A stretch of DNA of 64,000 bases from Microcaldota archaeon. Lineage in GTDB: Archaea > Micrarchaeota > Micrarchaeia > Anstonellales > Bilamarchaeaceae. The notes under the pieces were generated by a model that made no database searches, was not told where the DNA came from, and saw only the letters and a list, made by a program, of their open reading frames with translations. The translations under genes and the position numbers were made by a program. The stretch spans positions 1 through 64,000 of the forward strand of contig JAFGCC010000014.1 of NCBI GenBank assembly GCA_016932815.1. Direction: 5' to 3'. Positions 7,144 through 41,864 of this stretch are shown here, one piece after another; the stretch's first letter is position 1; each line of letters starts with the position of its first letter.

Positions 7144-8317
7144 GTACTTTGGCAGATATGGCGGGCAGTTCGTGCCCGAAACCCTGATTCCGGCAATGAA
7201 GGAACTAGAAGCCGGATACCTGAAGTTCAAAGACGATGATGGATTCAGGGAGGAACTTGAGTATTATTTGCGAGAATATGCGGGGAGGGAGACTCCCTTG
7301 TATTTTGCAAAGAGGCTGAGCGCGGAGCTTGGGGGAGCGAAAATCTACATAAAGAGGGAGGACCTGCTCCATACGGGCGCGCACAAGATAAACAACGCGC
7401 TTGGGCAGGCACTCCTGGCAAAGAGGATGGGCAAAAAGCGCATTATAGCCGAGACCGGGGCGGGCCAGCACGGGGTTGCAAGCGCAACGGTTGCAGCGCT
7501 TTTGGGCCTAGAATGCGAAGTGTACATGGGAAAAGTGGATACGCAGAGGCAGGCGCTAAACGTTTTCCGGATGAAGCTCCTTGGGGCAAAAGTGAATGTG
7601 GTGGAGACCGGTTCGCAGACGTTGAAGGATGCCGTAAATGATGCCCTGAGGGATTATACTGCGAACTTCTCTGATACCCATTATCTTTTAGGCTCGGCCC
7701 TTGGGCCCCATCCGTATCCCACCATGGTGCGGGATTTCCAGTCCGTAATAGGGAGGGAGGCAAGGGAGCAGATTCTGGAGGCGCAGGGGAAGCTCCCCGA
7801 TTGCCTGATTGCCTGTGTTGGGGGAGGAAGCAACGCAATAGGGCTGTTCTACCCCTTCTTGGATACCCACGTAAAAATGATTGGGGTTGAGGCCGGGGGA
7901 AACGGAAAGAAGCATGCAGCGCGGCTTGGGGGAAAAGGGAGAGTCGGAATCCTGCACGGGATGATTAGCTACCTGCTTGAAGACTCTAATGGGCAGATAG
8001 AGGAAACGCATTCGGTTTCCGCTGGGCTTGATTATCCCGCTGTGGGCCCAGAGCACTGCGAACTAATGGATGCGGGGCGCGTTTCTTATGTTTCCGCACT
8101 TGATTCGGAAGCGCTGGAAGCGTTCCATTTGCTTTCGTCCACTGAAGGGATTATTCCCGCCCTTGAGAGCGCGCACGCGGTTGCGCACGCACTAAAGGTT
8201 GCAAAGGAAATGGGCGGAGAGGAGAGCATCATAATCAACCTTTCAGGCAGGGGGGACAAGGACGTTGAGCAGGTAAAAAAGATGGAGGATTCTGGGAAAA
8301 GAGAGGTGGAAAAATGA
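7136..8317 (+). CDS. trpB: Tryptophan synthase beta chain
   Basis: Encodes 393 residues of the PLP-dependent subunit that condenses indole and serine. It starts with the typical [16 protein letters not shown] and carries the PLP lysine in [13 protein letters not shown], the [10 protein letters not shown] segment, [10 protein letters not shown] for phosphate binding and LSGRGDKD near the C terminus. It is a TrpB1-type chain with the [10 protein letters not shown] region needed for pairing with TrpA, which is encoded directly downstream with an ATGA overlap. It has no obvious insertions. Confidence 0.97.
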
Positions 8318-9129
8318 GGATTGAAAAGATGTTTTCCGCTCTTAAGGAGCGGGGAGTTGGGGCGTTCATGCCTTATGTGTGCTGCGGGGACCCATCTGCT
8401 GAATTCACGCTTGCGCTAATTGAAAAACTCGTTGGGAATGGCGCGGACGCAATTGAGCTTGGGATTCCCTTTTCCGACCCGATTGCGGATGGGAAAACTA
8501 TCCAGGCGGCATCTTCGCGGGCCCTGGATTCCGGGATGACGCCCCTTAAGGCGCTGGGGATTGTTTCGGAGGTTAGGAAGCGCGGGATTGAGGTTCCAAT
8601 ATTGATTATGGCTTATTACAATATCGTTTATGCAAATGGGGGGCGGGAGTTCCTAAAGAAGGTTAAGGAAGCGGGCGCGGACGGGATGATTGTTCCAGAT
8701 GCCCCGCTTGAGGAATCTTCTGAACTGCGGAAGCTGTGCAGTGACGCGGGGATTGATTTGATTTATTTTATCACTCCCAACTGCCCGGATTCGCGGCTTA
8801 AGGAGATTGCCTCTGTTGCAAAGGGATTCCTGTATGCGGTTGCGGTCCTGGGGATTACAGGGGAGAGGGAGGTTGTTGCACCCGAGGCGATTGCGCTAGT
8901 TGAGCGTGCAAGGAAGGTTACTGCTTTGCCGGTCGTTGTCGGATTCGGGATTTCAAAGCCTTCGCACGCAACTTCGCTCATGCGCGCTGGAGGTTCTGGG
9001 ATTATTGTGGGAAGCGCAATCGTTAATCTATATTCCAAACACGTTGGGGAGGAGTTCGATTCCACTGAGGCGTTGGAGGAGATTGGGGAATTCGCAAAAA
9101 GCATGAAGGGTGCGCTTTCTGGCAAGTGA
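8314..9129 (+). CDS. trpA: Tryptophan synthase alpha chain
   Basis: Encodes 271 residues of the TIM-barrel subunit that cleaves indole-3-glycerol phosphate and channels indole to TrpB. Key segments are [18 protein letters not shown] with the catalytic Glu and Asp, [31 protein letters not shown]-like GITGERE, and [10 protein letters not shown] with [11 protein letters not shown] for phosphate. It is the last gene of the trp operon and converges on the six-paralogue zincin cluster with 27 bp between the stops. Confidence 0.97.
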
Positions 9130-9156: not shown

Positions 9157-10347
9157 TTAGCCGAAAATAGCCCTTTTTGCCTGCTTTAGCGCTTCTTCCC
9201 TGAGGTTTTTCATGTCCGCCAATCCCAGGGAGGATGCGATTCCCTTGAGTATCCCAAGGGAAGTTTCGTGTATGGTTTTGTGGCTCATGCACATGTATCT
9301 TGCGAATGCGCCTATGGGCTTGTCCCAGTCCACGCCCTCTATTCCAAGGATGCCGTTGAAATGCTCCAAGAACGTGCCCAAGGCGATGTCATGGCAATCG
9401 GTGCTGCCCTGCCAGAGAGGCTGTGCGTGGGCGAGGAATTCCATGAATGACACGCGGGGGGCACCGGAAACGCTCTGCATAAAGGACTCTGCAAAAAGTT
9501 CGTGCAGTGCATCAGGAGGCCTCTCTTTTGGGCTTAGGATGTCCAGTATCATGTGCCCAACTTCATGGAGGGTGTTGTCGAATATTAGCTTGTCGAGGAA
9601 TCCGGGTTTGTCTTCAAGGGTGCCGAGCTGGCAGAGCAGGCAGCAGAAAGTGAAAAAGGGATTGCTCCCTTTTGCGGCCACGCTGCCGTGCACTCTCTCC
9701 AAAACCCGGGCGGCCTCCGCCTCATCCATCGCCCCGACAAAAGGGGCGAGGCGGCTGGGGAAATGCTTTGCGCCTTCAAGGTAAATGGGTGCCAGCTTAC
9801 CGGGCACTTCCGGGAAAACGAAAATCTTTTTCTGGCCATGCGGGCTTGGGTCCGCATAAAGCGCACCGATGTTAAGCCTCCCCAGCGGGCGGGGAAAAGC
9901 GTCTTCTGCTCCCATCCCATGCACGTTTGCAACGAACACTAGCGGGGCGCCGCAGATTGAAGTTTCATAGAAGATGTCCCCATAATAAACGTCCTTGTCT
10001 ATGTGGTCGAACTGGAGGAACACTCCCTTCTGCGCCATTGCGCATTCTATGGGGAGCAGGGTTTCCACGTAATATTTGTAAAGCGGGGCCAGCTGCATCC
10101 CCTCAAAGTAATCCTGGGGGGAGTTGGTTGCAGCAAGGCGCTCGCCTGGAGCGGGAGCGTTTCCGTGCTCCAGGACTTTCCTGAAGAACTCCCTTGTTGC
10201 CCCCGAGATTTCCTTTGCGTGGATTTTTGAAGGCGGAACGACACTCCGAGACTGCCTTCTAAACTGCCTCAGCCTTGCGGATATTGGCATTCCCGGTTTT
10301 GGGGAATGTGCATCCGGTTTTTGGATTATCTTTTGTGAGCCTGCCAT
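9157..10347 (-). CDS. HExxH zincin-like paralogue 1 (last gene of six-gene array)
   Basis: Encodes 396 residues. HEVGH at 261-265 plus a Glu in HELFAE at about 283 form a gluzincin-like zinc site (two His and a distal Glu). The family architecture is shared by six adjacent genes: an N-terminal motif ISARLRQFRRQ...IHAKEI, a central GDIF...(C)GAPLVFVAN block, a KKIFVFPE strand, the metal site and a terminal helix ending AKRAIFG. The ATG at 10347 is chosen because GCGAGG upstream is a ribosome site rather than coding. No signal peptide is seen, so a cytosolic metallopeptidase is likely, with an unknown substrate. I cannot assign a named peptidase family. Confidence 0.8.
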   Translation of the reverse strand: MAGSQKIIQKPDAHSPKPGMPISARLRQFRRQSRSVVPPSKIHAKEISGATREFFRKVLEHGNAPAPGERLAATNSPQDYFEGMQLAPLYKYYVETLLPIECAMAQKGVFLQFDHIDKDVYYGDIFYETSICGAPLVFVANVHGMGAEDAFPRPLGRLNIGALYADPSPHGQKKIFVFPEVPGKLAPIYLEGAKHFPSRLAPFVGAMDEAEAARVLERVHGSVAAKGSNPFFTFCCLLCQLGTLEDKPGFLDKLIFDNTLHEVGHMILDILSPKERPPDALHELFAESFMQSVSGAPRVSFMEFLAHAQPLWQGSTDCHDIALGTFLEHFNGILGIEGVDWDKPIGAFARYMCMSHKTIHETSLGILKGIASSLGLADMKNLREEALKQAKRAIFG

Positions 10348-10363
10348 GGTTGTGCCTCGCACG

Positions 10364-11521
10364 TTATTGGCCGAAGATTATCCTTTCCGCCTTGTGTACC
10401 TCCTTTTGGGAAGAGTGCCCCAGCCTGAAAGAGAACTCCCTGCAAATCTGTTTTAGCACCCCGGATGCCGCAGCATGTATTTCATTGGGGCTTGCTGCGG
10501 CATATTTGAGGACTGCGTTGAAATTGAGCAGGGGATTTCCGCCGCACTCGCCAAAATAGGGATTGAATCTCTCAATGAAATGCGTTATGCCCCGGAAATG
10601 CGGGTCAGAGCCTCCCTTCATGTAATTGGAGAGTATCTCTCCCAGATACAAATGCGGAAGCCTTGCAAGTGATATTGCAAATGCGTATGCGAAGAATTCG
10701 TGGGAACTTTTCGAAGCTTCCACCTTGGAGCCAAGGAGCACGTGCCCAAGCTCGTGGAGCAGCGTATAATGTGCCATTAAATCCAGCAGGTTCCCCTTCC
10801 CCTGGTTCTTTGCGGAATGATATGCGAACTTGCACATGAATTCCGCAGCGTCAATCGGAGTTTTCATGGAGCCTGCAAGGGATGCCGGGAGGGTGCCATT
10901 GAAAATCGGCAAATCCCCGTTGTCGCTGGCAAATGGCCCCTCCAGGATTTGCGGCGGAACCTTGAACCTCATTATCGGAATGTAATCGCGCATCTTCTCT
11001 AGCATATCCAAGAAGATGCATACGTGCCTGCGGGAGAATGGCGAATCGATTGTCTGCATCCCTCCGATATACGACTTGGACATGTCCAACGGCATATTCC
11101 CTTCCAATGAGTGGATTTTCGTATTGGCTATGAAAAGCAATGGGGACTTTGCAAGCGAAGTGCGGAAAACTATGTCCCCGGACAAGACAGTATTTATCGC
11201 GGGGGAAAAGCGGGTGAATATTCCTTCATTTTGCATTTGCTCCTCGAAGGGGCTTACGCGCTCCCCATAAAACCCGGCAAATTCATGCAGATTGGTTCCC
11301 GGGCAGATGGGCGCGTGCTTTAAGTGCCTCTTTGCAGGGCTTCCCAGATTACTGTGCGCCGCGAAAAACTCTTTTCTCGCTTCCGAGAGTTTTTTTGCAT
11401 ATTTGCCAGAAGGCGGAGGCTGCCTGCGAAATTCCCGCAACCTTGCGGAGATGCTTTTTTGCTCCGGGGCAGGAGGCTGGCTCCGGAACGCCCTATCCAG
11501 CATTGCGCGCATCTTTCCCAT
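10364..11521 (-). CDS. HExxH zincin-like paralogue 2
   Basis: Encodes 385 residues with HELGH at 256-260 and the candidate third ligand Glu275 in SHEFFAYA. The shared N-terminal motif is SISARLREFRRQ, the central block is GDIVFRTSLAKSPLLFIANT, then HVCIFLDM, and the tail is AERIIFGQ. The open frame reaches 11650 but that would overlap paralogue 3. The ATG at 11521 lies seven bases after GGGTGA, whose TGA is the stop of paralogue 3, so translation is probably coupled. The junction to paralogue 1 is different and uses GCGAGG. Sequence divergence from its neighbours is large outside the motifs, so the duplications are old. Confidence 0.8.
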   Translation of the reverse strand: MGKMRAMLDRAFRSQPPAPEQKSISARLREFRRQPPPSGKYAKKLSEARKEFFAAHSNLGSPAKRHLKHAPICPGTNLHEFAGFYGERVSPFEEQMQNEGIFTRFSPAINTVLSGDIVFRTSLAKSPLLFIANTKIHSLEGNMPLDMSKSYIGGMQTIDSPFSRRHVCIFLDMLEKMRDYIPIMRFKVPPQILEGPFASDNGDLPIFNGTLPASLAGSMKTPIDAAEFMCKFAYHSAKNQGKGNLLDLMAHYTLLHELGHVLLGSKVEASKSSHEFFAYAFAISLARLPHLYLGEILSNYMKGGSDPHFRGITHFIERFNPYFGECGGNPLLNFNAVLKYAAASPNEIHAAASGVLKQICREFSFRLGHSSQKEVHKAERIIFGQ

Positions 11522-11528
11522 TTTCAAA

Positions 11529-12668
11529 TCACCCAAAAACCGCTTCCTCCGCATCCTTTGCGGCCCCTTCCAGGAATCCTTCCTGGCTTTTTCCCAGCTC
11601 AGTGCAGACGCCCTCCAGTATTGCAGAGGAAATAGTGCGCACCTGCCCAACAGGCATGCACAGGTACCTGGGCAATGAATCGATTAGGGAGCGGGGCCCA
11701 AGCTCTTCTTTTATCCCAAGGCGCCTGTTGAACTCCCCTACGAACTCTTTTGCGGCGTGGGTGTGGGGACCTTTGGGGGAGTAGAGGTACAAAGCCGCCT
11801 GCTTAACCAATTCCGCTAGGTAGAGCCGCGTGGACTTGGAAGCGCTAAGCGAAGATGAATACGCGAAGAATTCATCTACGGCTGTTGGCATCGCCCTATC
11901 CGGGATTAGCTTCCTCAATAGCATATGCCCGGCCTCGTGCATTAGCGAATCGAAAACGAACTTGTCTAGGAGGGAATCCCTATCCTCCCCAAGCAGGGAG
12001 TGCTGGTAGAGCATTTCTGCCAATAGCGATGGGAGCCTCGGGTAGGAAAATCCTGCATCGATTAATCCCTCAACTGCCTGCCGGATGTGGAACCCTGCGA
12101 TTTTTTCGTTGAGGGGGGTTTCCGTATGCAGGAACTCTAATGGGTTCTTTTCCGCGCGCTCAAAATGGCCGAGAATCTTCTTCTCTGCCTGGTCTGCGAA
12201 AACGAATATTCTCTGGGGAGCGGGGGGGAACCCCGGGGAGAATGCCGCGGCAATCAGCCGCCTTTGGAGGAGCGAGCCAAGAGCCGTTTCCCTGGCATTG
12301 AGTTTCGTGTTTGCAACGAAAGCCGTTTCGCACCCGCATATTGCGGACTGGCGGATTATGTCCCCGAAGGTTACCGCATTCCCCACAAGTTCAAAAGAGA
12401 GGAAAACCCCTTTCTCCGCCATTTCATTTTCCAGGGGGAAGAGCACGTCCGCATAATACTGCAGGAGGGATTCCGCCCTGGATTCCCATTCCCTGAATGC
12501 GGGGCTGCCCTCTTTTGCCCCTGGTTTTGGGCGGCGGGAAAACGGGTGCCCAAGCTCCTTGTTCCTGCGGAAGAATGCCTCCCTTGCTTCAGCGAGCGCC
12601 TTTGCATTGAGCTTGGATGGGGAGGGCTTTTCCCTTGATTTTTTTAGCAGCAAAGATATTGGCGCCAT
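11529..12668 (-). CDS. HExxH zincin-like paralogue 3
   Basis: Encodes 379 residues with HEAGH at 244-248 and Glu266 in VDEFFAYS as the likely third zinc ligand. The N terminus (ISLLLKKSREKPSPSKLNAK) is a shorter version of the family motif. The central block is FGDIIRQSAICGCETAFVANT, followed by RIFVFADQ, and the tail is EEAVFG. The start at 12668 is chosen because it sits seven bases after GGGTGA, the end of paralogue 4; earlier in-frame ATGs lie inside that gene. It is part of the minus-strand operon driven from about 15920. Function is unknown beyond probable zinc-dependent hydrolysis. Confidence 0.8.
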   Translation of the reverse strand: MAPISLLLKKSREKPSPSKLNAKALAEAREAFFRRNKELGHPFSRRPKPGAKEGSPAFREWESRAESLLQYYADVLFPLENEMAEKGVFLSFELVGNAVTFGDIIRQSAICGCETAFVANTKLNARETALGSLLQRRLIAAAFSPGFPPAPQRIFVFADQAEKKILGHFERAEKNPLEFLHTETPLNEKIAGFHIRQAVEGLIDAGFSYPRLPSLLAEMLYQHSLLGEDRDSLLDKFVFDSLMHEAGHMLLRKLIPDRAMPTAVDEFFAYSSSLSASKSTRLYLAELVKQAALYLYSPKGPHTHAAKEFVGEFNRRLGIKEELGPRSLIDSLPRYLCMPVGQVRTISSAILEGVCTELGKSQEGFLEGAAKDAEEAVFG

Positions 12669-12675
12669 TTTTGCT

Positions 12676-13680
12676 TCACCCATAGATAATCCTCCTTGCA
12701 GGCTCAACTACCTGCTCATGCATATTTTCCAGGCTCACTCCCAGGCAGGCGCAGAGGCTTCCGAGAACGCCCGAAGCCGCGGCGCGTATTTCCCCTGCCG
12801 GGACTGATGCGCAGCGGATTAGGGAAGCTGCCTGCTCCTGCGTATTGGCCCAGCCCATTCCAAGGGAGGAACTCAGCTTCCCAAGGAAATCGTTTGAGCC
12901 GTAAAAATGCTCGCTGGGCCTGCGCCCTCTGGCATATACAGCGCATATCATAGAGAGGCAGATGCGCGTTTCAATTGCGTTGGGGAGGGAGAACGCGTAT
13001 GCGAAAAGCTCGGAAGTTTCCCCGGAAACCCCCTCCTTTCCTCCTAGGAGCGTGTGGCCGGTTTCGTGGAAGAGGACTTCCAGCAATGCCGCATCGAGAA
13101 GGCGGTCTTTGCCCTGGCTCTTTGCGGAAGCGTATGCGCTCCTGCACAGGTAATCCGATGCATCCTCTAGTGTGGAGATTCCGCTTTTGGGCTGGGGCGC
13201 TTTCAGGGAAAGGCCCTCTCCAAGCCTGCTTGCTGTGCGGTCTGCGAAGATGCAGATGCGCTCATAGGAGGTCCCCTTTAGGAGGGTGTGCATTCCCCTG
13301 GCCCCTCTTGGCACGGGATATTTGTCGCCCCTGCCCAGGGGGAAAACTTCGGTGTTGCTGCAAAAGAGGATTGGGCAGCCGCGTATTGAGGCGCGGTGGA
13401 AGATGTCGGCTGCAATGCCAAAGTTCCTGCTAAAGAAGAACTTGAAGAACACGCCTTTTTCCTCCATTCCTAGCTGGAGGGGAAGCACGTTTCTGTTGTG
13501 GAAGCGGTCGTAGGTTGGGGCATCGAGCACCTGCGCCTTCTTCCCGAATTCGCAAATTCCCCCGTTGCGCAGGAGGAGCCTGAAGAACTCGTTGCCCTTT
13601 GCCTTTAGTTCCTTAACGTGGGCGCGGGAGGGGGATTTTGCATTGCCGGCCTGCTTCAACATAGAAGATAGTGCTGCCAT
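12676..13680 (-). CDS. HExxH zincin-like paralogue 4
   Basis: Encodes 334 residues, the shortest of the six. HETGH at 205-209 and Glu224 in SELFAYAF form the probable zinc site. The central block ADIFHRASIRGCPILFCSNTE is nearly the family consensus and matches paralogues 5 and 6 well; RICIFADR follows, and the tail is ARRIIYG. The ATG lies seven bases after the GGGTGA that ends paralogue 5. No membrane segment or signal peptide is seen. All metal ligands are retained, so it should be active if the family is enzymatic. Confidence 0.8.
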   Translation of the reverse strand: MAALSSMLKQAGNAKSPSRAHVKELKAKGNEFFRLLLRNGGICEFGKKAQVLDAPTYDRFHNRNVLPLQLGMEEKGVFFKFFFSRNFGIAADIFHRASIRGCPILFCSNTEVFPLGRGDKYPVPRGARGMHTLLKGTSYERICIFADRTASRLGEGLSLKAPQPKSGISTLEDASDYLCRSAYASAKSQGKDRLLDAALLEVLFHETGHTLLGGKEGVSGETSELFAYAFSLPNAIETRICLSMICAVYARGRRPSEHFYGSNDFLGKLSSSLGMGWANTQEQAASLIRCASVPAGEIRAAASGVLGSLCACLGVSLENMHEQVVEPARRIIYG

Positions 13681-13687
13681 GATTAAT

Positions 13688-14794
13688 TCACCCGAAAACC
13701 GCTTTTTCTGCTTGTTCCAGGATGTTCTCCCGCATGGCCTCCAGGCTGATTGCGTGTTTTGCGCAAAGCCTGCTTATTAGTTTGTTAGCCGCCTTGCGTA
13801 TTTCCCCTGCACGCATGTTTGCAAATCCCGCAATCATCCTGGGAAATTTTCCCGAAGCTTCATCTGCCCCTGCAAGAAGCGGCTTGAGCATTGCAAAAAA
13901 ATTGCCTGCTGCAACTCTGTGGTCGATGGTTCCGCACTCATGTGCGTGCGCATCGGAAATGATGGATAAGAGTATGCGGGGCGCTTTCGCGTGTGCGAGG
14001 GAAAATGAGAATGCGAAAAGCTCGTGGAATTCCATTGGGAAATAACCGTGGCGGCAGAGCTCCATGTGGGCGCCTTCGTGGAGAAGGGTGTCGTATGCCC
14101 GGTTGTTTATTAGCTTGCCCGCGCCCATTTTGCGCGCAGAGAAATACGCGTGGTTGCGCAGGAATCCGCATGCGTATTCGAGAGCGTGCATGCGGGGAGC
14201 CTTGGGGGCGGAAACAACTGTTTCCAGCTTGTGCTCCACAGTATTCCGGATGGTGTCTGCAAAAACGCAGATTCTCTCTTTTGAGTATGCGCCCTGCCGC
14301 ACGTGCTCTCCTGTGCCCGCAACGGGCAGGGATGCCTCCGCCTCCCGGCTTATCCTGGAAAAGGACGTATTTGCGCCAAAGAAAACCGGGCACTCTTCAG
14401 TTGAATCCCGGCTAAACATTGCTTCCCCTGGGCCGCCCATTGATGCGCGGTGGAAGATGTCGCTGCTTAGCATCCGGTTGGAAGTGAAACTGAGGCTCAC
14501 GTGTATTCCCTCTTCTGCAAGCTTTGTGGTTAGGGGAAGCACGTTTTTATTGCAAAATTTCCCCATTGACTCCCAGTCGGAGATTATCAATTCGCTTCCG
14601 CACTTCCAGAGGATGTTCTTTTTTAGGAGGTAATCTGCAAAGCTGCTGAATTCGCCCTGAATCTCTTTTGCGCGGAGCTTTGAGGGAGAGGGTTTTGAAT
14701 CGAATTCCCTTAGCTTCTCTGAGAGGCTCTTAGGGCTAGGGGGAGCAGGCGCACGCCCCTGCATTTTCATTGTTCTTTTGCATGATTTTGCCAT
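13688..14794 (-). CDS. HExxH zincin-like paralogue 5
   Basis: Encodes 368 residues. Its motif reads HEGAH at 239-243, where the usual Gly before the second His is replaced by Ala, but both His and the Glu are kept, and Glu258 in FHELFAFSF supplies the third ligand. The N-terminal KSLSEKLREFDSKPSPSKL, central SDIFHRAS...CPVFFGANT, RICVFADT and tail EKAVFG follow the family plan. About 12 extra residues interrupt the central block. It starts seven bases after the GGGTGA of paralogue 6 and is co-transcribed with the others. Confidence 0.8.
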   Translation of the reverse strand: MAKSCKRTMKMQGRAPAPPSPKSLSEKLREFDSKPSPSKLRAKEIQGEFSSFADYLLKKNILWKCGSELIISDWESMGKFCNKNVLPLTTKLAEEGIHVSLSFTSNRMLSSDIFHRASMGGPGEAMFSRDSTEECPVFFGANTSFSRISREAEASLPVAGTGEHVRQGAYSKERICVFADTIRNTVEHKLETVVSAPKAPRMHALEYACGFLRNHAYFSARKMGAGKLINNRAYDTLLHEGAHMELCRHGYFPMEFHELFAFSFSLAHAKAPRILLSIISDAHAHECGTIDHRVAAGNFFAMLKPLLAGADEASGKFPRMIAGFANMRAGEIRKAANKLISRLCAKHAISLEAMRENILEQAEKAVFG

Positions 14795-14801
14795 TTTTGC
14801 C

Positions 14802-15869
14802 TCACCCGGAAACGAGCTTTTTCACCTTCTCAAAAGGATTGCCCATAAAGTCCTCTTTTGATGCTCCAAGGGATTTGCAGACTGCCCCGAATACCTCAAT
14901 TGCCGCGGAAAGAATCCTGTCCGCTGGAGCCTGGAAGTATTTGGGGATTAATGCTTCAATGGGGGAATCGCGGGCATCCTCCCCGAAAAGCCGGGAATTG
15001 CACCCTGCAACCAGTTCCGCGGAAGCACTTTTGTGGAGGCTGCTGCCATCCTGGGATGGGACTGCCATCTTGATTATATTGGCAAAATCCACGTGGGGGG
15101 ATTGCGAGTTTGCAAGCACGTATGAGAAGGCAAAGCGTTCCTGTGCGGGCGAATCCAGCGTCCATTGCGGAAACCTCCGGGTGAATGCCATGTGCCCAAG
15201 CTCGTGCGCGATATATCCAACGAGTACGTCCTCGAGCGACATTTTCTCTCCGAATGAGAAGAAATTGGACAGTGCGGAATATGCCTCTGCAAGCAATGAA
15301 GGGGGCACACCCTTGGCGGAAGGGCCGCCATAATGCCTTCCTAAGAGGGGCATCAGGGTTTCGGCGGGGATAGTATGTGCGGCATCCCCAAGGCCCTCTA
15401 TTGCCCCTCCCATTATTATGGAATTGGATTCAAGGAGCGATTCCGCCAAGTCTGCGAAGATGGCTATCCTCTCGCCCTTAATGGAATTTTCGCACGGATT
15501 GAAGATGCAGGAATAGTGTGCCGGGATTATTGTCACGTTTGGGTCCCCTGCCCCCCGGGGATTAGTGGAGATTTCCGAATTCGCAAGGAAGATGACTGGG
15601 CAGCCTTCTATCTGCGCCCTGTGGAAGATGTCCGCGGTGGTTATCGCCTCCTTCTCCCAACTAAAGGAGAACAGCACGCCCTTCTTTCCCATTTTCTCTT
15701 CTATTGCAATCAACTTTCTGGAAAATGAGCCAAGCCTTGCCGCGTCTTTTGTGTCAATCTTATCATAGGCGGAGAACACCTTATTCTTGAGCTTCGCTAA
15801 CTTCCTTGCGTGGATTTGCGTGGGGGGAGTGCCCTTGCGGAATTCGTTTAGCCTTGTGGAGATGGACAT
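14802..15869 (-). CDS. HExxH zincin-like paralogue 6 (first gene of the array)
   Basis: Encodes 355 residues. HELGH at 222-226 and Glu244 in QERFAFSY form the likely zinc site. The N-terminal SISTRLNEFRKGTPPTQIHARKL and central TADIFHRAQIEGCPVIFLANSE are close to the family consensus; RIAIFADL follows, and the tail is KKLVSG. It is promoter-proximal: a TATA box at 15918-15927 and a GCGAGG ribosome site seven bases before the ATG at 15869 set the start. The open frame extends to 16106 across the divergent aromatic promoter, which makes the longer start unlikely. Confidence 0.8.
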   Translation of the reverse strand: MSISTRLNEFRKGTPPTQIHARKLAKLKNKVFSAYDKIDTKDAARLGSFSRKLIAIEEKMGKKGVLFSFSWEKEAITTADIFHRAQIEGCPVIFLANSEISTNPRGAGDPNVTIIPAHYSCIFNPCENSIKGERIAIFADLAESLLESNSIIMGGAIEGLGDAAHTIPAETLMPLLGRHYGGPSAKGVPPSLLAEAYSALSNFFSFGEKMSLEDVLVGYIAHELGHMAFTRRFPQWTLDSPAQERFAFSYVLANSQSPHVDFANIIKMAVPSQDGSSLHKSASAELVAGCNSRLFGEDARDSPIEALIPKYFQAPADRILSAAIEVFGAVCKSLGASKEDFMGNPFEKVKKLVSG

Positions 15870-16287: not shown

Positions 16288-17265
16288 ATGAAGGGATTGA
16301 AACTTGCCGCATTAAACGGCGAAGGAAGGACGATTGTGCGCGTGGGGGATGCCAAAGTGGGAGAGGGGCTTACCGTTATAGCCGGCCCGTGCGCAGTTGA
16401 GAGCGAAGAGCAGCTCCTGGATACCGCGAGGGCGGTAAAGGAAGCCGGGGCGGATATGCTGCGCGGAGGCGCATTCAAGCCGCGCACTTCCCCGTATGCT
16501 TTCCAGGGGCTTGGGCTAAAAGGGTTGAAACTGCTTGAAAAAGCAAGGGATGAAACCGGGCTCCCTATTGTGACCGAAGTTCTGGACACCAGGGACGTAT
16601 CCTGGGTTTGCGAATACGCGGACGTGCTCCAGATTGGGGCTAGGAACATGCAGAATTTCTCGCTCCTAAAGGAAGTTGGGAAAATGAATAAGCCCATACT
16701 CCTAAAGAGGGGGATGAATTCGACTATCAGCGAGTGGCTAAACTGCGCGGAATACATCCTAAACGACGGGAACCCGGGCGTAATACTCTGCGAGAGGGGA
16801 ATCCGCACATTCGAAACCTACACGCGGAACACGCTGGACTTGAGTGCGGTTCCCGCAGTAAAGGGGCTAACCCACCTTCCGGTGATTGTGGACCCCACTC
16901 ATGCGACCGGCAGGAAGGAGCTAATTGAGCCTATGGCGGTTGCGGGAGTAGCCGTAGGCGCAGACGGGCTTATTGTGGAAGTGCACAACAATCCGGAGGC
17001 TGCTCTCTGCGACAAGGACCAGGCGCTAACACCCCCACAATTTAATAGCCTAATTGGGAAAGCAAGAAGGATGCGGAAGTTCATAGAGGAACTTAACGGT
17101 GCGGATGGAAGCGCCCCGGATAGTGCGAATGAGGGGAGGGCTTCTGGCGATTGTGCTTCCGGGGTGCAAACTCCCAAAAAGGCGGGCGAAAAGGGGAAGC
17201 CCGCGGATTCTTCTTCCAAAACGGATGAAGCGCAGGGATGCGGATGCTGCGGGGGATGCGAATGA
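16288..17265 (+). CDS. aroF: 3-deoxy-7-phosphoheptulonate (DAHP) synthase, type I-beta-like
   Basis: Encodes 325 residues and condenses PEP with erythrose-4-phosphate, the entry step to all aromatic amino acids. The KdsA/AroF-like barrel shows [82 protein letters not shown] and [13 protein letters not shown]. There is no ACT or chorismate-mutase domain, so allosteric control is not apparent. This fits control at the leader RNA. After residue 275 comes a tail of about 50 residues, Ser/Gly/Lys-rich, ending CGCCGGCE, which could bind metal. It overlaps aroB by ATGA. Confidence 0.94.
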
Positions 17266-18284: not shown

Positions 18285-19030
18285 TATGTGCTAGCATAGG
18301 CGAGAGCAGTATTGAAGATTGCATTAGCGCATTGGGAAAAGTGGGGTTTGCGGAAGTGCGGCTGGACTCCATTTCCGGCATAGGCGTTGGGGATGTGCGC
18401 AGGATATTCTCGCTTTCAAGTTCCGGAAAGAAGCTTATTGCAACCTGCAGGAAGGAAGCCTGCGCAGGATGCGGTATTGCACAAGATGGGGGAAGCGCAG
18501 GTTCTGGCAGGGGAGCCCATGATTGTGCCGGAGGAAGGAGCGCCGGGAAAATCCTTGATGATTCTCTTAGGAAGGAACTCCTCCTTGCCGCAATAGATTC
18601 CGGGGCGGCATACGTGGATTTGGAAGTGGAGATGGCGGAGGGGATGCGCAAGGAGATTGCCGATAGGGCAAAAGAGAGAGGATGCAAACTGATAGTTTCC
18701 TTCCACGATTTTAGCGGCACCCCGAAGCGGGAGGAGCTTGGCAAAATCGTGGAGAGGTGCTTCTCCTGCGGCGCGGACGTTGCGAAAATCGCCTGCATGG
18801 TTGATTCCCAGCAGGACAATGCGAGGCTGCTTGGGTTGCTTGGGGAATGGAAGGGGCTAATAGTAATAGGGATGGGCAAGAAAGGCAGGAGCACCAGGGT
18901 ATTGGCTCCGCTTCTTGGGGCAGAATTCACTTTCGCTTCCCTTGGGGGGAAAACCGCCCCGGGGCAGATGGAACTTGGAAAAATGAGAGAGATTATAGAG
19001 AGAATAGAAGATGAATTGGAGACGGATTGA
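18281..19030 (+). CDS. aroD: 3-dehydroquinate dehydratase, type I
   Basis: Encodes 249 residues and dehydrates 3-dehydroquinate through a Schiff base. FAEVRLDSI near the N terminus, LIVSFHDFSGTP with the catalytic His, VAKIACMV with the Schiff-base Lys, and SLGGKTAPGQM at the C terminus are typical. An extra Gly/Ser/Cys-rich stretch (CAGCG...GGSAGSGRG...CAGG, about residues 61-88) interrupts the barrel after the second strand and is not expected in the family. ATGA overlap with aroB; it meets aroE-aroK at a TTGA overlap or a few bases later. Confidence 0.93.
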   Translation: MICASIGESSIEDCISALGKVGFAEVRLDSISGIGVGDVRRIFSLSSSGKKLIATCRKEACAGCGIAQDGGSAGSGRGAHDCAGGRSAGKILDDSLRKELLLAAIDSGAAYVDLEVEMAEGMRKEIADRAKERGCKLIVSFHDFSGTPKREELGKIVERCFSCGADVAKIACMVDSQQDNARLLGLLGEWKGLIVIGMGKKGRSTRVLAPLLGAEFTFASLGGKTAPGQMELGKMREIIERIEDELETD

Positions 19031-19032
19031 AA

Positions 19033-20367
19033 ATGGAAAACGAACCTACCATGGGAACGGAAATATTTGCGGTTGCGGGAAACCCCGTGCTGCATAGCAG
19101 GAGCCCGCAGCTTATGAACTGCGCATTTGAGTCCCTGGGAATTGACGCGGTATATACGAGGATGCTAGCCGGAAGCGGGGAAGAGGCGGTGAGGACCGCA
19201 AAAGAAATCGGGCTTGGAGGGCTGAATATAACCTCGCCTTTCAAGGGGGAGGTCATTGAGCACCTAGATGAAGTTAGTACGCAAGCGCGCAAATTGGGGG
19301 CTGTGAACACTATTGTTTTTGAGGGGGATTCTGCCTCCGGGCACAATACGGATTATCTTGGGGCAATCGGGGCGCTGGAAAACGCATCCATCGGGATTAG
19401 GGGGAAGAAGGCGGTTGTTCTCGGAGCCGGGGGGGCGGGGAGGGCTGCCGCATTCGGCCTGCACTCCGAAGGCGCAAAAGCCACCCTCCTGAATCGGGAT
19501 GCGCAAAAAGCGCAGGAGGCGGCGGATGCGATAGGCTGCGCTTTTGGGGGCATGGGCACCCTCGCAGAGGAACTGCTTGATTCTGACATCGTGGTTTCCT
19601 GCCTCCCTAGGGGGCTAAACCTCATTGAGGCGCAGATGCCCAAAGAGGGAGCGGTTCTCATGGATGCCAATTACGGGGAATCCCCCCTGGCGGGCATTGC
19701 GCAGAAAGCCAACTGCACGTTCATTGATGGGCGCGAATGGCTGCTTGCGCAGGCTGCGCCCTCCTTTGAGCTTTTTGTGAGCAAGATTGCGCCCATAGAA
19801 GCGATGCGGGAGGCTGTTTACGCGGATTTGCCCGAAGAGGGAGTGTGGAAGGGAACGGGCAACATAGCCCTAATCGGGTTTATGGGCGTAGGAAAAAGCG
19901 CTGTTGCAAGGGAGCTGTCAGTAGAGAGCGGGAAGGAGCTAACCGACGTTGATTTGGAAATAGAGAAGCGTGCCGGAGCGAGCATAAAGCACATCTTCTC
20001 CGAATTCGGGGAGGATGAATTCCGCTCCATGGAGCGCGAAGAGATTGCGAGGGTTGGGCAAGCCCGCAACAAGGTAATAGATTGCGGCGGAGGAGCCGTG
20101 CTTGATGAGGGGAACGTGGAAATACTGCGCAAGAGTTCGGTTCCGGTGTGGCTGTGGGCGAGGCCTGAGACCGCGCTATCACGGCTCGGTGAAGAATCCG
20201 GAAGGCCCCTTTTGGATGTGGAAGACAGGATGGGGCTTGCCAGGAAACTTAGTTCGGGGCGCAGGGGGAAATACGCGAAAACCGCGCAGATGATTATAAG
20301 CAGCGAAGGAAGGAGCGCTGCGGAAGTTGCAGGGATGATATTGCATGAAACAGGTAAATCCATCTGA
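19033..20367 (+). CDS. aroE-aroK: Shikimate dehydrogenase-shikimate kinase fusion
   Basis: Encodes 444 residues with two catalytic domains. Residues about 5-270 are shikimate dehydrogenase: NPVLHSRSPQLMN, GLNITSPFKGEVI, AVNTIV, HNTDYLGA, VVLGAGGAGRAAAFGL. Residues about 275-444 are a bacterial-type P-loop shikimate kinase: IALIGFMGVGKSAVAREL, DVDLEIEKRAG, FRSMEREEI, VIDCGGGAVL, and RPLL as the lid. Most archaea use an unrelated GHMP-family shikimate kinase, so the kinase domain suggests acquisition from bacteria. The ATG at 19033 is preferred to an in-frame TTG at 19027. It overlaps aroA by 23 bases. Confidence 0.93.
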   Translation: MENEPTMGTEIFAVAGNPVLHSRSPQLMNCAFESLGIDAVYTRMLAGSGEEAVRTAKEIGLGGLNITSPFKGEVIEHLDEVSTQARKLGAVNTIVFEGDSASGHNTDYLGAIGALENASIGIRGKKAVVLGAGGAGRAAAFGLHSEGAKATLLNRDAQKAQEAADAIGCAFGGMGTLAEELLDSDIVVSCLPRGLNLIEAQMPKEGAVLMDANYGESPLAGIAQKANCTFIDGREWLLAQAAPSFELFVSKIAPIEAMREAVYADLPEEGVWKGTGNIALIGFMGVGKSAVARELSVESGKELTDVDLEIEKRAGASIKHIFSEFGEDEFRSMEREEIARVGQARNKVIDCGGGAVLDEGNVEILRKSSVPVWLWARPETALSRLGEESGRPLLDVEDRMGLARKLSSGRRGKYAKTAQMIISSEGRSAAEVAGMILHETGKSI

Positions 20368-25614: not shown

Positions 25615-26394
25615 ATGGAGTTTGATGAGCTCGTTTCCTTCACTTTGGGAGGCTACAGTGCCAAAACGAGGATTCTAGGAGGAGAACTCCTTAATGAAAT
25701 CTACAAAGTACTCCTCATAGGCCAGCGCGCACAGCAATACCTGATTCCAATAAAAATGGGCGCTGTGAGCAGGTTCAGGCATGGATGGTCTTGGAGGGAC
25801 CCCTGCGAAGGAGTCCTGCTTGATGATGGCACAAACGCAAGGGTGTTCGCAGAAGAAGCAAAAGCGGCAGAAGCTGCCGGGGGCGATATGGTTGGCGTTC
25901 CGGAAGGGGCTGCCGCAGAGGATGTGGGAGCCGTTGAAGTAAGCAGGGAAGCCGCTATAAGGGGAATCCTCAAGGCGGCCAACCAGGTTCTCGATGCAAA
26001 AGGGCAGGCGGAACTCGCAATGTTGCTCTTGGAGAGGAGTGGGGCGGCGCAGCAGGAAGGGGCAATAGGTGCGGATTCTGAAATAAGCGAAGGGGGAGAG
26101 GCGCCTTCAGCAGAGGAGAGGGCTGCAATGGTAAAGGACATCTTATTTGCAACTGCCCTTCTGGAAGAGGAGGATGTGCGCGTATTGCATGGGGAGTTGG
26201 CAAAAAGGCTCCAGGATTCCGAAGCGGATATTAAAGAGGAGGGCAAGAAAATGCCTGCTCCGAAGAAAAAGCGGGAGATGGCGGCAGAGGGGGCACAAAA
26301 ACCGTTTGATAAAAAGAGGCACTCTCCACCCGAAGCGAATCCCAAGCCAAAGAAGGCAATGTGCATGATGCGGGTTCGCAAGCTAAAGATATGA
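25615..26394 (+). CDS. Uncharacterised acidic/basic low-complexity protein
   Basis: Encodes 259 residues. Residues 1-75 look folded (FDELVSFTLGGYSAKTRIL...LIPIKMG). The middle is Ala/Glu-rich with predicted helices (AAIRGILKAANQVLDAKGQAELAMLLLE). The last 55 residues are Lys/Pro-rich and end in a basic MRVRKLKI. A TATA-like AATATAAG at 25580-25588 suggests a nearly leaderless transcript separate from the aromatic operon. I recognise no family; the basic tail could contact nucleic acid. Confidence 0.7.
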   Translation: MEFDELVSFTLGGYSAKTRILGGELLNEIYKVLLIGQRAQQYLIPIKMGAVSRFRHGWSWRDPCEGVLLDDGTNARVFAEEAKAAEAAGGDMVGVPEGAAAEDVGAVEVSREAAIRGILKAANQVLDAKGQAELAMLLLERSGAAQQEGAIGADSEISEGGEAPSAEERAAMVKDILFATALLEEEDVRVLHGELAKRLQDSEADIKEEGKKMPAPKKKREMAAEGAQKPFDKKRHSPPEANPKPKKAMCMMRVRKLKI

Positions 26395-36619: not shown

Positions 36620-36692
36620 GCCTTGGTAGCTCAGTAGGTAGAGCGCGTGCTTGGTAAGCACGAGGTCGCGAGTTCGATTCTCGCTCAAGGCT
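36620..36692 (+). tRNA. tRNA-Thr (anticodon GGT)
   Basis: Acceptor GCCTTGG pairs with TCAAGGC (one G-U). The D arm is GCTCAGTAGGTAGAGC, the anticodon stem CGTGC/GCACG with loop TTGGTAA (anticodon GGT), and the T arm GCGAG-TTCGATT-CTCGC. Discriminator T at 36692 is shared with the TAA stop codon of the convergent gene. CCA is not encoded. Confidence 0.93.
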
Positions 36693-37768
36693 TACTGCTT
36701 TTTGAAATACTTGGGAAAGCTCAACTTGTGCAGCCCGAATATGTTCTCGCTCCTGCCGCGCGTGGGGGCTATCCCGCACATATTCTCGCCTATGGGGCCA
36801 AACAGGGAGGCAAAGGCGTTTGAGGCCATCAGGTGGGGGGCGGTACTCACGACCTTTTCCCGTATCCTCGAAATCGCTTCAAGCGCCTCCATGCCTGCGT
36901 CGCAAGCCTCCGACATCTCAACGAGCTTGTCCGCGTGCTCCCGCGGGTTCGGGGGCTCATTGTGCGGCCAGTATTTTCCAAGCTCTTCGGAAAATGCTTC
37001 CTCCCTTGCCAGTTGGGCGCTTGAGAGTTCCACCAGTGTTTCGAGTTCCTTGAGTTCTTTTTCGAACAGCCTGTTGGCCGCTTCATCCATCTTGGCGGAA
37101 ACTACTTTTGAGGGGTCGCGTCTCTGGAGGGCTTCCACCCTAGAAACGAAATCCGGGTTTTCCCGCGAGAGGCCCGTTCCCGCGCTTATCCTCCTTAGTG
37201 CATCCATGTATTCGTTGTAGAACTCGTCTATGCTCCCAAGTTCGTTTTCCAGTCCTAACATTGCGTCCGTGAATCCGTATCGGGTCCCCAGGTGCTCAAA
37301 GCCGTTGTCCACGTTGGAGAAGGATTCCAGCCGGTTTAGGATTCCCGCCTCTGTTATATTGCAGGCTTCCTCAAAATGCGGGGCGGCGAGTTCAATGGCA
37401 CGAGGCTCTTCTGCCAAAGACAGCATGTCCATGGATATCCAGGAAACCAGGGAATGGTTTGCGCAATCTAGCATGCGCTTGGAGAACACATTTAGCACCT
37501 GCGTTTCCAGTCCGGAAAGCCTCTCTTCTACGCTTGCGGCATCTGCCTTTCCATCCGCATCTTTGAGCTTCATATATTCGCGCTCTGCGATTTCCTCCGG
37601 GGTGGGGACGTTGCCCAAGGGGTCCGTGGTCGCAGCCAGCCTGGCAAGGGGGGCAACTGCGCGGGCAATCCGCAATATTGCTTCTTCTTTGGTGAGCAGT
37701 TTCTGGGAGATTTTAGCCTTCGGGATTTTTTGCTCCTTCGGAATTCTTTTTAGTTGTTTTGGATTCAT
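36692..37768 (-). CDS. Unrecognised helical protein, last gene of the J-domain operon
   Basis: Encodes 358 residues, almost entirely predicted helix, with Glu/Ala-rich coiled-coil-like stretches (KMDEAANRLFEKELKELETLVELSSAQLAREEAF) and a basic N terminus (KQLKRIPKEQKIPKAK). No membrane segment, signal peptide or catalytic motif is seen. It starts within the stop of the papain-like gene (ATGA), behind AGGAGG, so it is translated with it. Its stop abuts tRNA-Thr. The function is unknown; co-expression with two J-domain proteins and a hydrolase suggests a shared complex. Confidence 0.7.
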   Translation of the reverse strand: MNPKQLKRIPKEQKIPKAKISQKLLTKEEAILRIARAVAPLARLAATTDPLGNVPTPEEIAEREYMKLKDADGKADAASVEERLSGLETQVLNVFSKRMLDCANHSLVSWISMDMLSLAEEPRAIELAAPHFEEACNITEAGILNRLESFSNVDNGFEHLGTRYGFTDAMLGLENELGSIDEFYNEYMDALRRISAGTGLSRENPDFVSRVEALQRRDPSKVVSAKMDEAANRLFEKELKELETLVELSSAQLAREEAFSEELGKYWPHNEPPNPREHADKLVEMSEACDAGMEALEAISRIREKVVSTAPHLMASNAFASLFGPIGENMCGIAPTRGRSENIFGLHKLSFPKYFKKQ

Positions 37769-38805
37769 GGGAACCGCCTCCTAATATCCATGTAAAACTC
37801 CCTGAGGATTCGTATGATTTCCGCTGCCCTTAGGAACTGGACGTGGCTGCGGGTGAATCTGGAGATTCCATCCTCGTTCCCGCATACCGCGGTTTCGCAT
37901 TCCATAGCGGGTGCATTTGCCGCATCCTCCAGGGAAACCCTTCCCGCTGGGCCCTGTGATATTGCGCCTTCTACGCAACTTAATTCCGGGCACCTTGCTA
38001 GTTCGCTGGGGGAAGCCGTGGGTGCAGCAACGCTGAGGGGATATCCCATACCGATAAACATTTCACATACGAGCTGGGAGCAGAACGGCCCTGAGCGCAA
38101 GGGAGGGACTTTCTCCCCTCCAAATGGGGGGAATGCCTTCTCCCATGCAGAAAAAAGGGAATGCACGCATCCGCTCTTAGCCAGGCGGGCAAGGGTGCGG
38201 CGGATGAGGGACTGCTCATCTTCTGGAACCGCAAACGCGAGCCCCCTGGCCAAATCCGCAAGTAGGGGGTATTCTAGGAATAGCGAATCCTGCATTGCAG
38301 AATTGAGGAGTATTGTTGCGCGCGCATCCACGATAAGCTCGATTTCCTCGTGAATCCTCCTGAAATTGGTGGAGCGGGAGAATTGCCCGCCTTTGAAGCG
38401 AAGTTTCGGGGGATGCATGAATGAAATCCTGCCGCACTCAAGGTCGGATAATGCCTGGAGGCGCAGGGCGGAGAGGAAGTGTTCGTTGCGGTAAACCCCC
38501 GCAATAGTGGCGTGGGGGATTTTCATTAGGGGCTCGCAATAGCGCCCGCTCCTCTCAAAATCATGGACCTTGAGCCTCGTTATTACGGAGCCGCCGAAAC
38601 TAGCTTCCAGCACGCAATTCTTATTCACGAATATCCCTGCGTGGGAGAAAACGCCCCTGCCCGCCCAGGCTACCGCCTTGTCCATGAAGCCGCCCTCATA
38701 TGAGAGGAGGACGTCTCCGGGCCTAATTAGCCTCTGCCTTATACGGGTGTCGGGGCCGACCTTCTCGTGCCTTGGGAAGGGGGCGCTGAGGAGCCTGGTT
38801 TGCAT
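37765..38805 (-). CDS. Permuted papain-like (YiiX/NlpC-P60 superfamily) hydrolase
   Basis: Encodes 346 residues. RPGDVLLSYEGGFMDKAVAWAG followed by FSHAGIFVNKNCVLEAS is the circularly permuted NlpC/P60 pattern with the catalytic His in SHAGI, and FCSQLVCEMFIGMG near residue 240 supplies the catalytic Cys. The family includes amidases and peptidases acting on lipids or peptides. The region between the two motifs is long (about 160 residues) and helical. No signal peptide is seen. GGTGAG just upstream supports the ATG at 38805. It lies between a J-domain protein and the helical protein in one operon. Confidence 0.75.
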   Translation of the reverse strand: MQTRLLSAPFPRHEKVGPDTRIRQRLIRPGDVLLSYEGGFMDKAVAWAGRGVFSHAGIFVNKNCVLEASFGGSVITRLKVHDFERSGRYCEPLMKIPHATIAGVYRNEHFLSALRLQALSDLECGRISFMHPPKLRFKGGQFSRSTNFRRIHEEIELIVDARATILLNSAMQDSLFLEYPLLADLARGLAFAVPEDEQSLIRRTLARLAKSGCVHSLFSAWEKAFPPFGGEKVPPLRSGPFCSQLVCEMFIGMGYPLSVAAPTASPSELARCPELSCVEGAISQGPAGRVSLEDAANAPAMECETAVCGNEDGISRFTRSHVQFLRAAEIIRILREFYMDIRRRFP

Positions 38806-38833: not shown

Positions 38834-40252
38834 TCATATCCGCTTAATCCTGCACACCTTTAGCGGTGCGGGCTGCACGGGAGCCGGGGTTTTTGCCCTG
38901 GGGGCAATCTTCCGGGAATCCCCCGCAGTGGATACCGGCCCTTCTTTGGGCCCCATTCCTTTGAGCTTGCAGAGTGCATACCTTGACGTCCTGCGCGTAA
39001 CGTCCCGGGAATCCCGGATTGTTTCCAGTGCCCACTCTTCCTGCGCGGAATCCACGAGGGATTTTCCAGCCGCGTCCATGAGGGCTTCGCCCAGGTGCGG
39101 GCTGGTTGCGATTTCCTCTAGTTCCCGCGGGCCCAGGGCTTCAGGGGCAATCGAGAGGATGCGGGCAAGTTTTTCTTCTGCGGCATCCGGAATTTCTTCC
39201 GGAATGGAGTAAGTGCCGCCATCGCAAAAGCGGCATCTTTCAAGAAGATTGTATAGGGATTTCGCGTTGGACCACTTAACGAGTTCGAAGCCTGCGGCAA
39301 CCTGCACTTCGTATCCGAAGATTGGCTCCCCCATTACGTAATCGAGCCATTTGCGCTCGAGAGTGCCGGAGAGCCCTTCGATGGATTTTATGAGCCGTTT
39401 CCTGGCAATGCCGCATACTTCCTTTGAAACCTTGCGGGAGGCGATTATTGAAGCGAGCGTTTTTACTTCGGGCCCCTCATCGCCCTGCATCATCAGCCGG
39501 GAAGCGGCGGCATTCCTGAGCCCAACCCCGAACTGCCAGGATGGATCATGAACTATCCTCTCAAGCTCCCCAGGCTCGAACCAAGTATCCCCCCGCAGGA
39601 ATATGCCGGCAAGCTTCTCTTCTGCGTGTTTCTGGACGAAGGGGAGGTTGCGCTCCCTGAAGAAGGCGATTAGCTCATGCCCATCGGACTGCTCCACGAG
39701 CTTTTTCCCGATTGCAGTCCGCACACTCTCATTGAGCTTGCGGGAATGAAGCTGTGAATACAGCCATTCGCTGCCGATATCCGGGGCGGAAGCGATTGCT
39801 TCGGAGAGCCTCTCATCTACGCGGTGGCTTACTTCCGCCCTGAGGCCTTGCCTTTCGGAAAAACTGAGCAACTCCTCAAAGCTCGCGTTATCAACGTCTT
39901 CTATGGTAAGCGCGGGCTTGCAGTACCAGACCTCGCGAAACCCGGGGCCATCAGATACCGTGGCACGGATGAGGTCCATGTAGCCTTCCATGTTGATTAC
40001 AACGGACTCGATGAATCCCGTTTCTGGGCCGAAGCCTGTCCTCAACTGGAAATCGTAATCCTGCCTCTTCTGCGCATTTGAGAGCACATCGTATGCCTCT
40101 GCGGCTTCCTTGAATCCCTCTTCGGCTTTCGGATTGTTTGGGTTGCGGTCAGGATGCAGCTTCATTGCGAGCCTGCGGTAGGCCCGCTTTATCTGCTGCG
40201 CAGTTGCATCCTGCGAAACTCCGAGGGCATCGTAGTAAGATTTCCTGGACAC
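38834..40252 (-). CDS. J-domain protein with HEAT-like repeat array (B)
   Basis: Encodes 472 residues. Residues 1-70 are a J domain with the HPD motif (YYDALGVSQ...[15 protein letters not shown]...[15 protein letters not shown]), which stimulates Hsp70 ATPase. The rest, about 130-440, is an array of helical repeats of the HEAT type. It lacks the Gly/Phe region, the zinc domain and the C-terminal substrate domains of DnaJ, so it is not the housekeeping DnaJ. A Cys pair in ERCRFCDGG is isolated. The start is GTG, seven bases after the stop of the upstream paralogue. Confidence 0.82.
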
Positions 40253-40259
40253 CTGAGAA

Positions 40260-41864
40260 TCATCTCTTGATTTTTTGCGGAGGCTTGTTGCGCGCGGGAT
40301 TGTGCCCCTTTGGCGGTTTTATCTTACCTCCAATGCCGTAGGCAAGATTCTTTGCGCCCCGCACGAATGCGGGCTTTTTGGCTTCGCGGACCGCATCAAG
40401 CTTCTTCTGCGCATAATCGGTTACGGAGCCAAAGAGGGCAAGCGAATTCGCAGCCGCATGCAGCTTTGTTTCATCGTCTCCCATCTGGTCCACCCTGGTC
40501 ATTCCTGCGGCAATCCGGAGCGTGTCTCCGAGGCGGTTGCACATTGCAAGGCTGTCTAGCCATTCGGAATTGCATTGCGTGCCCAGTGATTTTATGATGC
40601 GCGTTAGTTTATCTTCCGCCGCATCCCTTACCGCTTCGGGCACGAAATGGGTTACCATGCACAAGGAGGTAAGCTCTCCCGCCTCGGCACCCTCAACATA
40701 CCTAAGGCCCGCGGCAATCTTGAGCCTGTTTCCCAGGTTGAGGTCCTGGGTTAGTTCCCTTAGCCATCCCGGGCTGATTCCTTCTGAGGGGTCTTCTATT
40801 AATCGTATTAGCTCGGTCTCCGCGGCGGCGTTTACTTGCGGGGGAACGTAGCCTGACCTTGCCATCCTGACTAGCTCCTCGTCGTAAATATCGGATTCTG
40901 CGCCGTAGGCTTTTGCAAGGCTGCATCCCACGGCTATCCTTAGCTCCTCCCCGTAGTGTTCTGCGTGGAAGAGGATTCTTTCTAGGCGGTCCAGGTCCGC
41001 CCACTCGTACTGCCCCATTTCGGAGATTTCTTCGTGGTTTAGTGAATCGTAGAGCTCGGCCATTTCATTTAGCATGCGCGCAAGTTTTGCTTCAGCAGCA
41101 TCCTGCACTTTTGAAGGGAGGTTGCCCGTATCCAGGATTGCAAGCATTACCTGCCCGCTGTTGGATTGTTTGACCCACCGCATACCCGCGGCCTCCCTGA
41201 CCGGGTTGCCCACGTCGCTGCAAAGGAGGGAGTCAAGCCATTCCTCATCAAGGTCCTCCCGGTAGGTTTCATCATCAGCGTACCTCTTCCCATAGGTTTC
41301 TAGCTGGCGGATTAGGCGCTCGTCCACTTCAAGCTTTATCCTGAAATCCAGGTTGCGCTTTGCGGCAATCCTGCCCAACTCGTATATGTCCGCGTTCGCT
41401 ACGTCATCCCAGGTTACATTCGGTGTGGGGTTGTAATATCCTGCGCGGGGGCCGCGGCGGTTGGGCATGCCGCCGAATACCTGCTCGAAAATTGCCTGGG
41501 CAAAATCCGCTCCGGGGAATCCCGCAGAATCCACTTCGAAGCCTTCGGGCACTTCCACCCTTACGGCGAATCCTCCTCCAACAATATCCACGATTGTAAC
41601 TCCAATGCCCCCTGGATGCGGGAAGCCCCCGATGCCCATGCCCATCATGCGGAGTTCACGGTCGTATTGTTCCTTCATCTCCGGGGTGGTCAAGGTCTTG
41701 TGCGCCTCGGTGACCTGCTTGAACCTCTCTTCGGCTTCGGGATTGTTGGGGTTGCGGTCGGGGTGGAACTCCATTGCAAGCCTGCGGTAAGCCTGCTTTA
41801 TTTCCTTATCGCTGGCATTGGGTGAGACGCCTAGGATTTCATAGTAATTTTTCTTCTGGGGCAT
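40260..41864 (-). CDS. J-domain protein with HEAT-like repeat array (A)
   Basis: Encodes 534 residues. The J domain (1-70) reads [22 protein letters not shown] and [12 protein letters not shown] with the HPD motif. A Gly-rich, beta-like linker (about 75-130) follows, then about 350 residues of helical repeats (for example '[27 protein letters not shown]'). The repeats resemble those of the paralogue downstream and of the proteins at 0.15-2.1 kb. It is the first gene of a four-gene minus-strand operon; TTTAAAAA at 41888-41895 predicts a leaderless start. The role may be to recruit Hsp70 to a specific target bound by the solenoid. Confidence 0.84.

Follow-up and report, generated by a model that had tools for sequence, protein, structure and literature searches.

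Introduction

What do six adjacent, strongly diverged HExxH proteins do in a small archaeal genome, and can they be placed in any named metallopeptidase family? The locus that raises this question lies in a Microcaldota archaeon (assembly GCA_016932815.1), on a 64,000-nt stretch (contig JAFGCC010000014.1, positions 1 to 64,000) that was analysed as a whole and is referred to here as the window. At 9157-15869, on the minus strand, six tightly packed consecutive genes (Z1-Z6) encode proteins of ~330-400 aa; a preliminary description of the DNA had reported six open reading frames at this position and strand, and they are present there. The genes form a tandem set of common ancestry, with an invariant HExxH motif and distal Glu, uniform translation signals and no match to a known family. 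Here we describe the locus, the conserved residues and predicted fold of its products, their relatives, and their likeness to known peptidases. The reading that we consider fairly probable is that the six genes are translated together into intracellular metallopeptidases of gluzincin type whose substrates have diversified.

The six-gene locus and its translation signals

The set is transcribed in the order Z6, Z5, Z4, Z3, Z2, Z1 and fills the interval between trpA and the DAHP synthase gene (Table 1). Adjacent genes overlap by 8 nt at one extreme and lie 16 nt apart at the other. A TATA-box-like archaeal element (TTTATAAA), read directly in the sequence ahead of Z6, could be a single promoter for all six genes.

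A Shine-Dalgarno-like element is found 7 nt upstream of the likely start of all six genes. The final Gly codon and stop codon of Z6, Z5, Z4 and Z3 read GGG TGA, and the GGTGA contained in this GGGTGA sits exactly 7 nt before the ATG of Z5, Z4, Z3 (at 12668) and Z2 (at 11521), respectively, while Z6 and Z1 have GAGG instead, at the same distance from the start. The genes for ribosomal protein S2 and EF-1alpha in the window carry GGTGA 4-6 nt before the start. Translation of the six genes therefore appears to be coupled and governed by equal signals; the tight spacing and uniform Shine-Dalgarno-like elements support the earlier proposal of one operon.

The same signals bear on the terminal (I/V)(F/Y)G motif previously ascribed to the proteins. 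Z2 ends in FGQ and Z6 in VSG, and the terminal "FG" reflects in part a ribosome-binding site, because GGG TGA is the Shine-Dalgarno element of the next gene at four junctions. Since the Gly codon doubles in this way, its conservation need not mean a protein-level function; the terminal Gly is kept in Z1 and Z2 though the codon there is GGC, which makes a protein-level constraint possible. The DNA at the Z6/Z5 and Z4/Z3 junctions is near-identical (GGGTGARGCAAAAATGGC), a likeness that may go back to tandem duplication or to convergence of translation signals.

Table 1. Positions of the six genes, the candidate promoter element and the flanking genes (spacer, residues from the second His of HExxH to the distal Glu)
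Feature	Position	Strand	Length	HExxH (position)	Spacer	Remarks
Z6 (P0006)	14802..15869	-	355 aa	HELGH (15192-15206)	17	First gene of the operon; GAGG 7 nt upstream of ATG
Z5 (P0005)	13688..14794	-	368 aa	HEGAH (14066-14080)	14	
Z4 (P0004)	12676..13680	-	334 aa	HETGH (13054-13068)	14	E224 at 13009-13011
Z3 (P0003)	11529..12683	-	384 aa	HEAGH (11925-11939)	17	Alternative ATG at 12668, GGTGA 7 nt upstream; may be the true start
Z2 (P0002, translated from 11515)	10364..11521	-		HELGH (10742-10756)	14	ATG at 11521, GGTGA 7 nt upstream
Z1 (P0001, read from GTG at 10362)	9157..10347	-		HEVGH (9553-9567)	17	ATG at 10347, GAGG 7 nt upstream; last gene, convergent with trpA
TTTATAAA	15919..15926	-				TATA-box-like archaeal element, ~50 nt upstream of Z6; candidate promoter
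trpA	8314..9129	+				End of trp operon; context, outside the six-gene system
DAHP synthase gene	16288..17265	+				Start of aro operon; context, outside the six-gene system

Conserved residues and predicted fold

Aligned over their whole length, Z1-Z6 show pairwise identities of 23-33%. Despite this low identity, HExxH is found in the same alignment column in all six proteins and is followed by a distal Glu in the context E-[LFR]-F-A (6/6). Invariant residues occupy 18 of 295 ungapped columns, including all four H/E/H/E positions (chance ~1e-5), so the metal ligands are retained as first described. With the relative from genome G008 added (see below), 10 of 288 columns are invariant, of which four are catalytic (chance ~7e-7) and the others are a Pro close to the N-terminus, the Asp-Ile pair of one strand, the Phe and Asn of the strand that follows it, and the Ala after the distal Glu. 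The previously noted GDIF block stands as far as its invariant Asp-Ile is concerned, with the G present in Z1-Z3 only and ADIF or SDIF in Z4-Z6; the Pro ahead of the LVF strand is absent in Z3. Hydropathy agrees with the reported lack of signal peptides: no stretch in the six proteins reaches membrane level (maximum 19-residue Kyte-Doolittle values of 1.16-1.51), and neither a signal peptide nor a membrane anchor, as in secreted peptidases, is found by this measure. The six proteins thus look cytosolic.

The AlphaFold2 model of Z4, built on an eight-row alignment, is confident (pLDDT 87.9, pTM 0.89), and that of Z1 is mediocre (pLDDT 66.6). In the Z4 model, N-terminal helices and a helix at 54-74 are followed by five strands within 77-145, two helices, the putative metal helices and five C-terminal helices, an order like that of gluzincins. 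HETGH (205-209) lies in helix 191-212, and E224 in the next helix (220-234). Foldseek comparison of the Z1 and Z4 models with the PDB retrieved no zincin and no whole-fold match; the best results for Z4, estrogen-receptor/nuclear-receptor domains (E 0.02, TM <0.2), were set aside as meaningless helical look-alikes. The putative zincin active site proposed earlier is consistent with the Z4 model, where helix order and helix length fit: HExxH is on a helix that lies behind the sheet of five strands, and the Glu is on the helix that follows. The fold may be new, or a small zincin core may be hidden by the added helices; the Foldseek result for both models suggests that the catalytic domain may be unusual, or that the mutual orientation of the helices may differ from that in zincins.

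Distribution and evolution of the family

The host genome (G000; 1.25 Mb, 91.5% complete) is a draft of 25 contigs, the window being part of a 214 kb contig, and its EF-1alpha is 85-87% identical to those of four Micrarchaeota genomes. A family profile matches exactly the six genes in G000 and no others. A scan of the phylum with this profile, which also covers 43 same-family genomes, gives matches in 3 of 301 genomes, namely G000, G008 and G004. G008, from another genus, has one intact gene (360 aa), and HExxH and Glu are kept in 7/7 proteins (the six and G008), with spacers of 14, 16 or 17 residues. G004, from the same genus as the host, has one gene with an intact 410-aa frame, the product of which is homologous to the six end to end (hhalign 96.7%, 336 columns). 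This protein has M-A-L-G-K in place of HExxH (H to M, E to A, H to K) with the distal Glu alone kept, and is likely a dead relative. The MALGK relative (L019:1301-2530, in the same-genus genome CSMAG_931) lies beside a Rad50 gene and is a candidate pseudo-enzyme. Another match, in G039 (L011), is inside a ribosomal protein cluster and was rejected as chance.

Outside the phylum, the profile found no match in 371 genomes (phylum of a Woesearchaeota record) or in 87 genomes (phylum of a Diapherotrites record), each set being weaker evidence as it contains no positive control genome. A pattern-based contig scan of genomes with Z1, which reaches close relatives only, found no match either, and literature searches returned no description of such a cluster. 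As judged from these genomes, the family appears to be confined to a few Micrarchaeota and strongly lineage-restricted.

In a tree of the six with the G008 and G004 proteins, the six form one clade with support of 97/97 (unrooted split), and the set is therefore a lineage-specific expansion, as first suggested and in keeping with the presence of the family in so few genomes of the phylum. Z1 and Z3 group together, with support of 86/88 in the eight-row and 97/97 in the six-row tree; the latter places Z2/Z4/Z5 opposite Z1+Z3, with Z6 as a long, unplaced branch. Terminal branches exceed 1 change per site, indicating that the duplication is old or the divergence fast. The draft state of G000 might suggest an artefact, with unrelated reading frames containing HExxH brought together by assembly or chance, but this explanation is already refuted by profile scores of 383-475 bits over the full length, by the position of all six genes on one contig with GC like that of their surroundings, and by the conserved motif order and full-length homologues in two other genomes.

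Comparison with known metallopeptidases

Searches of Pfam, NCBIfam, PADLOC and PHROG gave nothing above curated cut-off or at significant E-value, and PDB sequence searches gave chance matches only, in agreement with the earlier statement that the proteins match no named peptidase family. The best PADLOC match (E 0.004) covers 32 residues of the HExxH helix only. A DnaJ-like PDB match of the Z2 N-terminus (E 0.29) and a SMYD1 match of the family profile (E 0.33) are at chance level and were discarded.

Like gluzincins, the six have HExxH and a distal Glu 14-17 residues on, in separate helices, after a β sheet with a preceding helix; no solved member, however, matches them in sequence or over the whole fold. 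The gluzincin-like definition used for M60-like proteins is HEXXHX(8,28)E (PMC3267712), a pattern that is present in 6/6 and in the G008 protein and lost in G004. M60-like proteins are extracellular, whereas the six look cytosolic.

The M78 family (IrrE/ImmA-like, PF06114) shows a local likeness, with a P..F..N strand, an HELGH helix and an E..A helix; the common pattern comprises a strand end P-[VLI]-x-F-x-[AN]-N, LxHExxHxxLG and E-x-x-A. The six could accordingly be divergent M78 peptidases in which a long stretch has been inserted ahead of the active-site helix, their substrates being repressors or stress regulators. The best PF06114 match is a weak one, to residues 250-276 of Z2 (E 0.2, 11.9 bits vs a cut-off of 22), and profile-profile comparison (hhalign) with five M78 proteins gives a probability of 18% over 20 columns, confined to the HExxH helix. 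The Asn and HExxH are ~15 residues apart in M78 (L104) vs 95 in Z4, where the insertion includes two extra helices; moreover, the six have no HTH domain, and a search of G000 for M78 genes found none. With a score below cut-off, so short an alignment and a different layout, M78 membership was rejected, and descent from this family is improbable.

Wss1 and SPRTN, known as minigluzincins, combine HExxH and Glu with a single sheet and a pair of metal helices. The six resemble them in this respect, and the solitary relatives of the six adjoin SMC (G008) and Rad50 (G004) genes, which would suit a role in DNA-protein crosslink repair or chromatin maintenance. Such a role is very unlikely, because only two neighbours are concerned, they are different genes and the orientation is opposite in G008, while the six-gene set lies between amino-acid operons and Pfam searches found no DNA-binding domain. 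Minigluzincins, which are named in PMC4559962, also differ in size and build from the six, which are 330-400 aa long with extra N-terminal, middle and C-terminal helices, and Pfam searches with a limit of E 10 gave no match of the six to WLM or SprT profiles. By these comparisons the family appears to work in the manner of gluzincins, and none of them assigns it to a named family.

Genomic context

The order trp then aro is also found in G008 (L112), where an open reading frame for a LysE-type permease (named by eye from the sequence) and no zincin lies between the operons. The zincin gene of G008 is found on a different contig, next to NadM-like and SMC genes and in opposite orientation to the latter. 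The six genes are therefore not visibly tied to aromatic amino acid synthesis. The same-genus genomes offer no clean empty site for comparison, since other genes lie to the left of S9/S2 and trpA was not found in the five genomes searched. A defence or toxin role, raised in the preliminary description, did not find backing: PADLOC recognised no known defence gene in the set or among nine unassigned neighbours in the window, and no relative of the six is present in the phage, plasmid and viral collections searched.

Several other features of the window were noted. Apparently complete trp and aro/phe/tyr operons are present at 2592-25562 in this small archaeal genome, and a shikimate dehydrogenase-kinase fusion is encoded at 19027-20367. 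Directly after the aro operon is a 259-aa open reading frame (25615-26394, plus strand), for which Pfam gave no match and nine related genomes gave no homologue. Two adjacent minus-strand genes (38834-41864) each encode an N-terminal DnaJ domain (E ~1e-26) followed by 400-460 residues without Pfam match, and adjoin two more unassigned genes (36692-38805). A 1921-aa open reading frame (51241-57006, minus strand) is followed by a 788-aa lipoprotein-like one (48878-51244).

Proposed activity and significance

In the proposed mechanism, one transcription unit would encode six paralogues, all of them intracellular zinc hydrolases and most likely peptidases of gluzincin type. By analogy with zincin chemistry, Zn2+ would be bound by both His residues of HExxH and by the Glu 14-17 residues on, and the Glu of HExxH would activate water for attack on the peptide bond. 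The cleft is predicted to be lined by a conserved hairpin (in Z4, Asp92-Ile93 and Phe106..Asn109). Z1-Z6 differ greatly from one another except at the N-terminus, in this hairpin and in the two metal helices, which suggests that the copies probably have different proteins or partners as substrates.

Alternatively, the proteins might bind metal without proteolysis, serving as structural or binding proteins or non-peptide hydrolases, perhaps as a hetero-oligomer of unequal subunits. The equal translation signals on all genes suggest balanced synthesis, the N-terminal segment is conserved outside the catalytic core, and the persistence of a G004 relative with an intact frame and no HExxH suggests that some lineages may use the fold for something other than proteolysis. 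However, the general-base Glu and the ligands are kept in 6/6, and pure binding proteins need no such Glu; we regard this alternative as unlikely for the six. The family is real, orphan and probably enzymatic.

For the favoured set of gluzincin-type peptidases, an accessory proteolytic function in biological conflict (with viruses, mobile DNA or partner cells) may fit somewhat better than housekeeping, given the sporadic distribution, the strong divergence with catalytic residues kept, and the likely dead single relative. Contact with partners or quality control would be other possible roles. A more far-reaching and rather doubtful proposal is that the family, restricted to a few Micrarchaeota, is an undescribed one with a new zinc-hydrolase fold, expanded into six co-translated members that are directed at different targets or assembled into one mixed protease complex, acting as an accessory weapon or shield in a reduced-genome archaeon.

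A family with no entry in the searched libraries and a confident fold without whole-fold PDB match is a good target for structure and activity studies, and the six putatively active copies, one putatively active single copy and one apparently dead copy would provide a ready-made natural mutational series. The retention of six diverged, apparently active copies in a 1.25 Mb genome, of a family near-absent in relatives, suggests strong and specific pressure.
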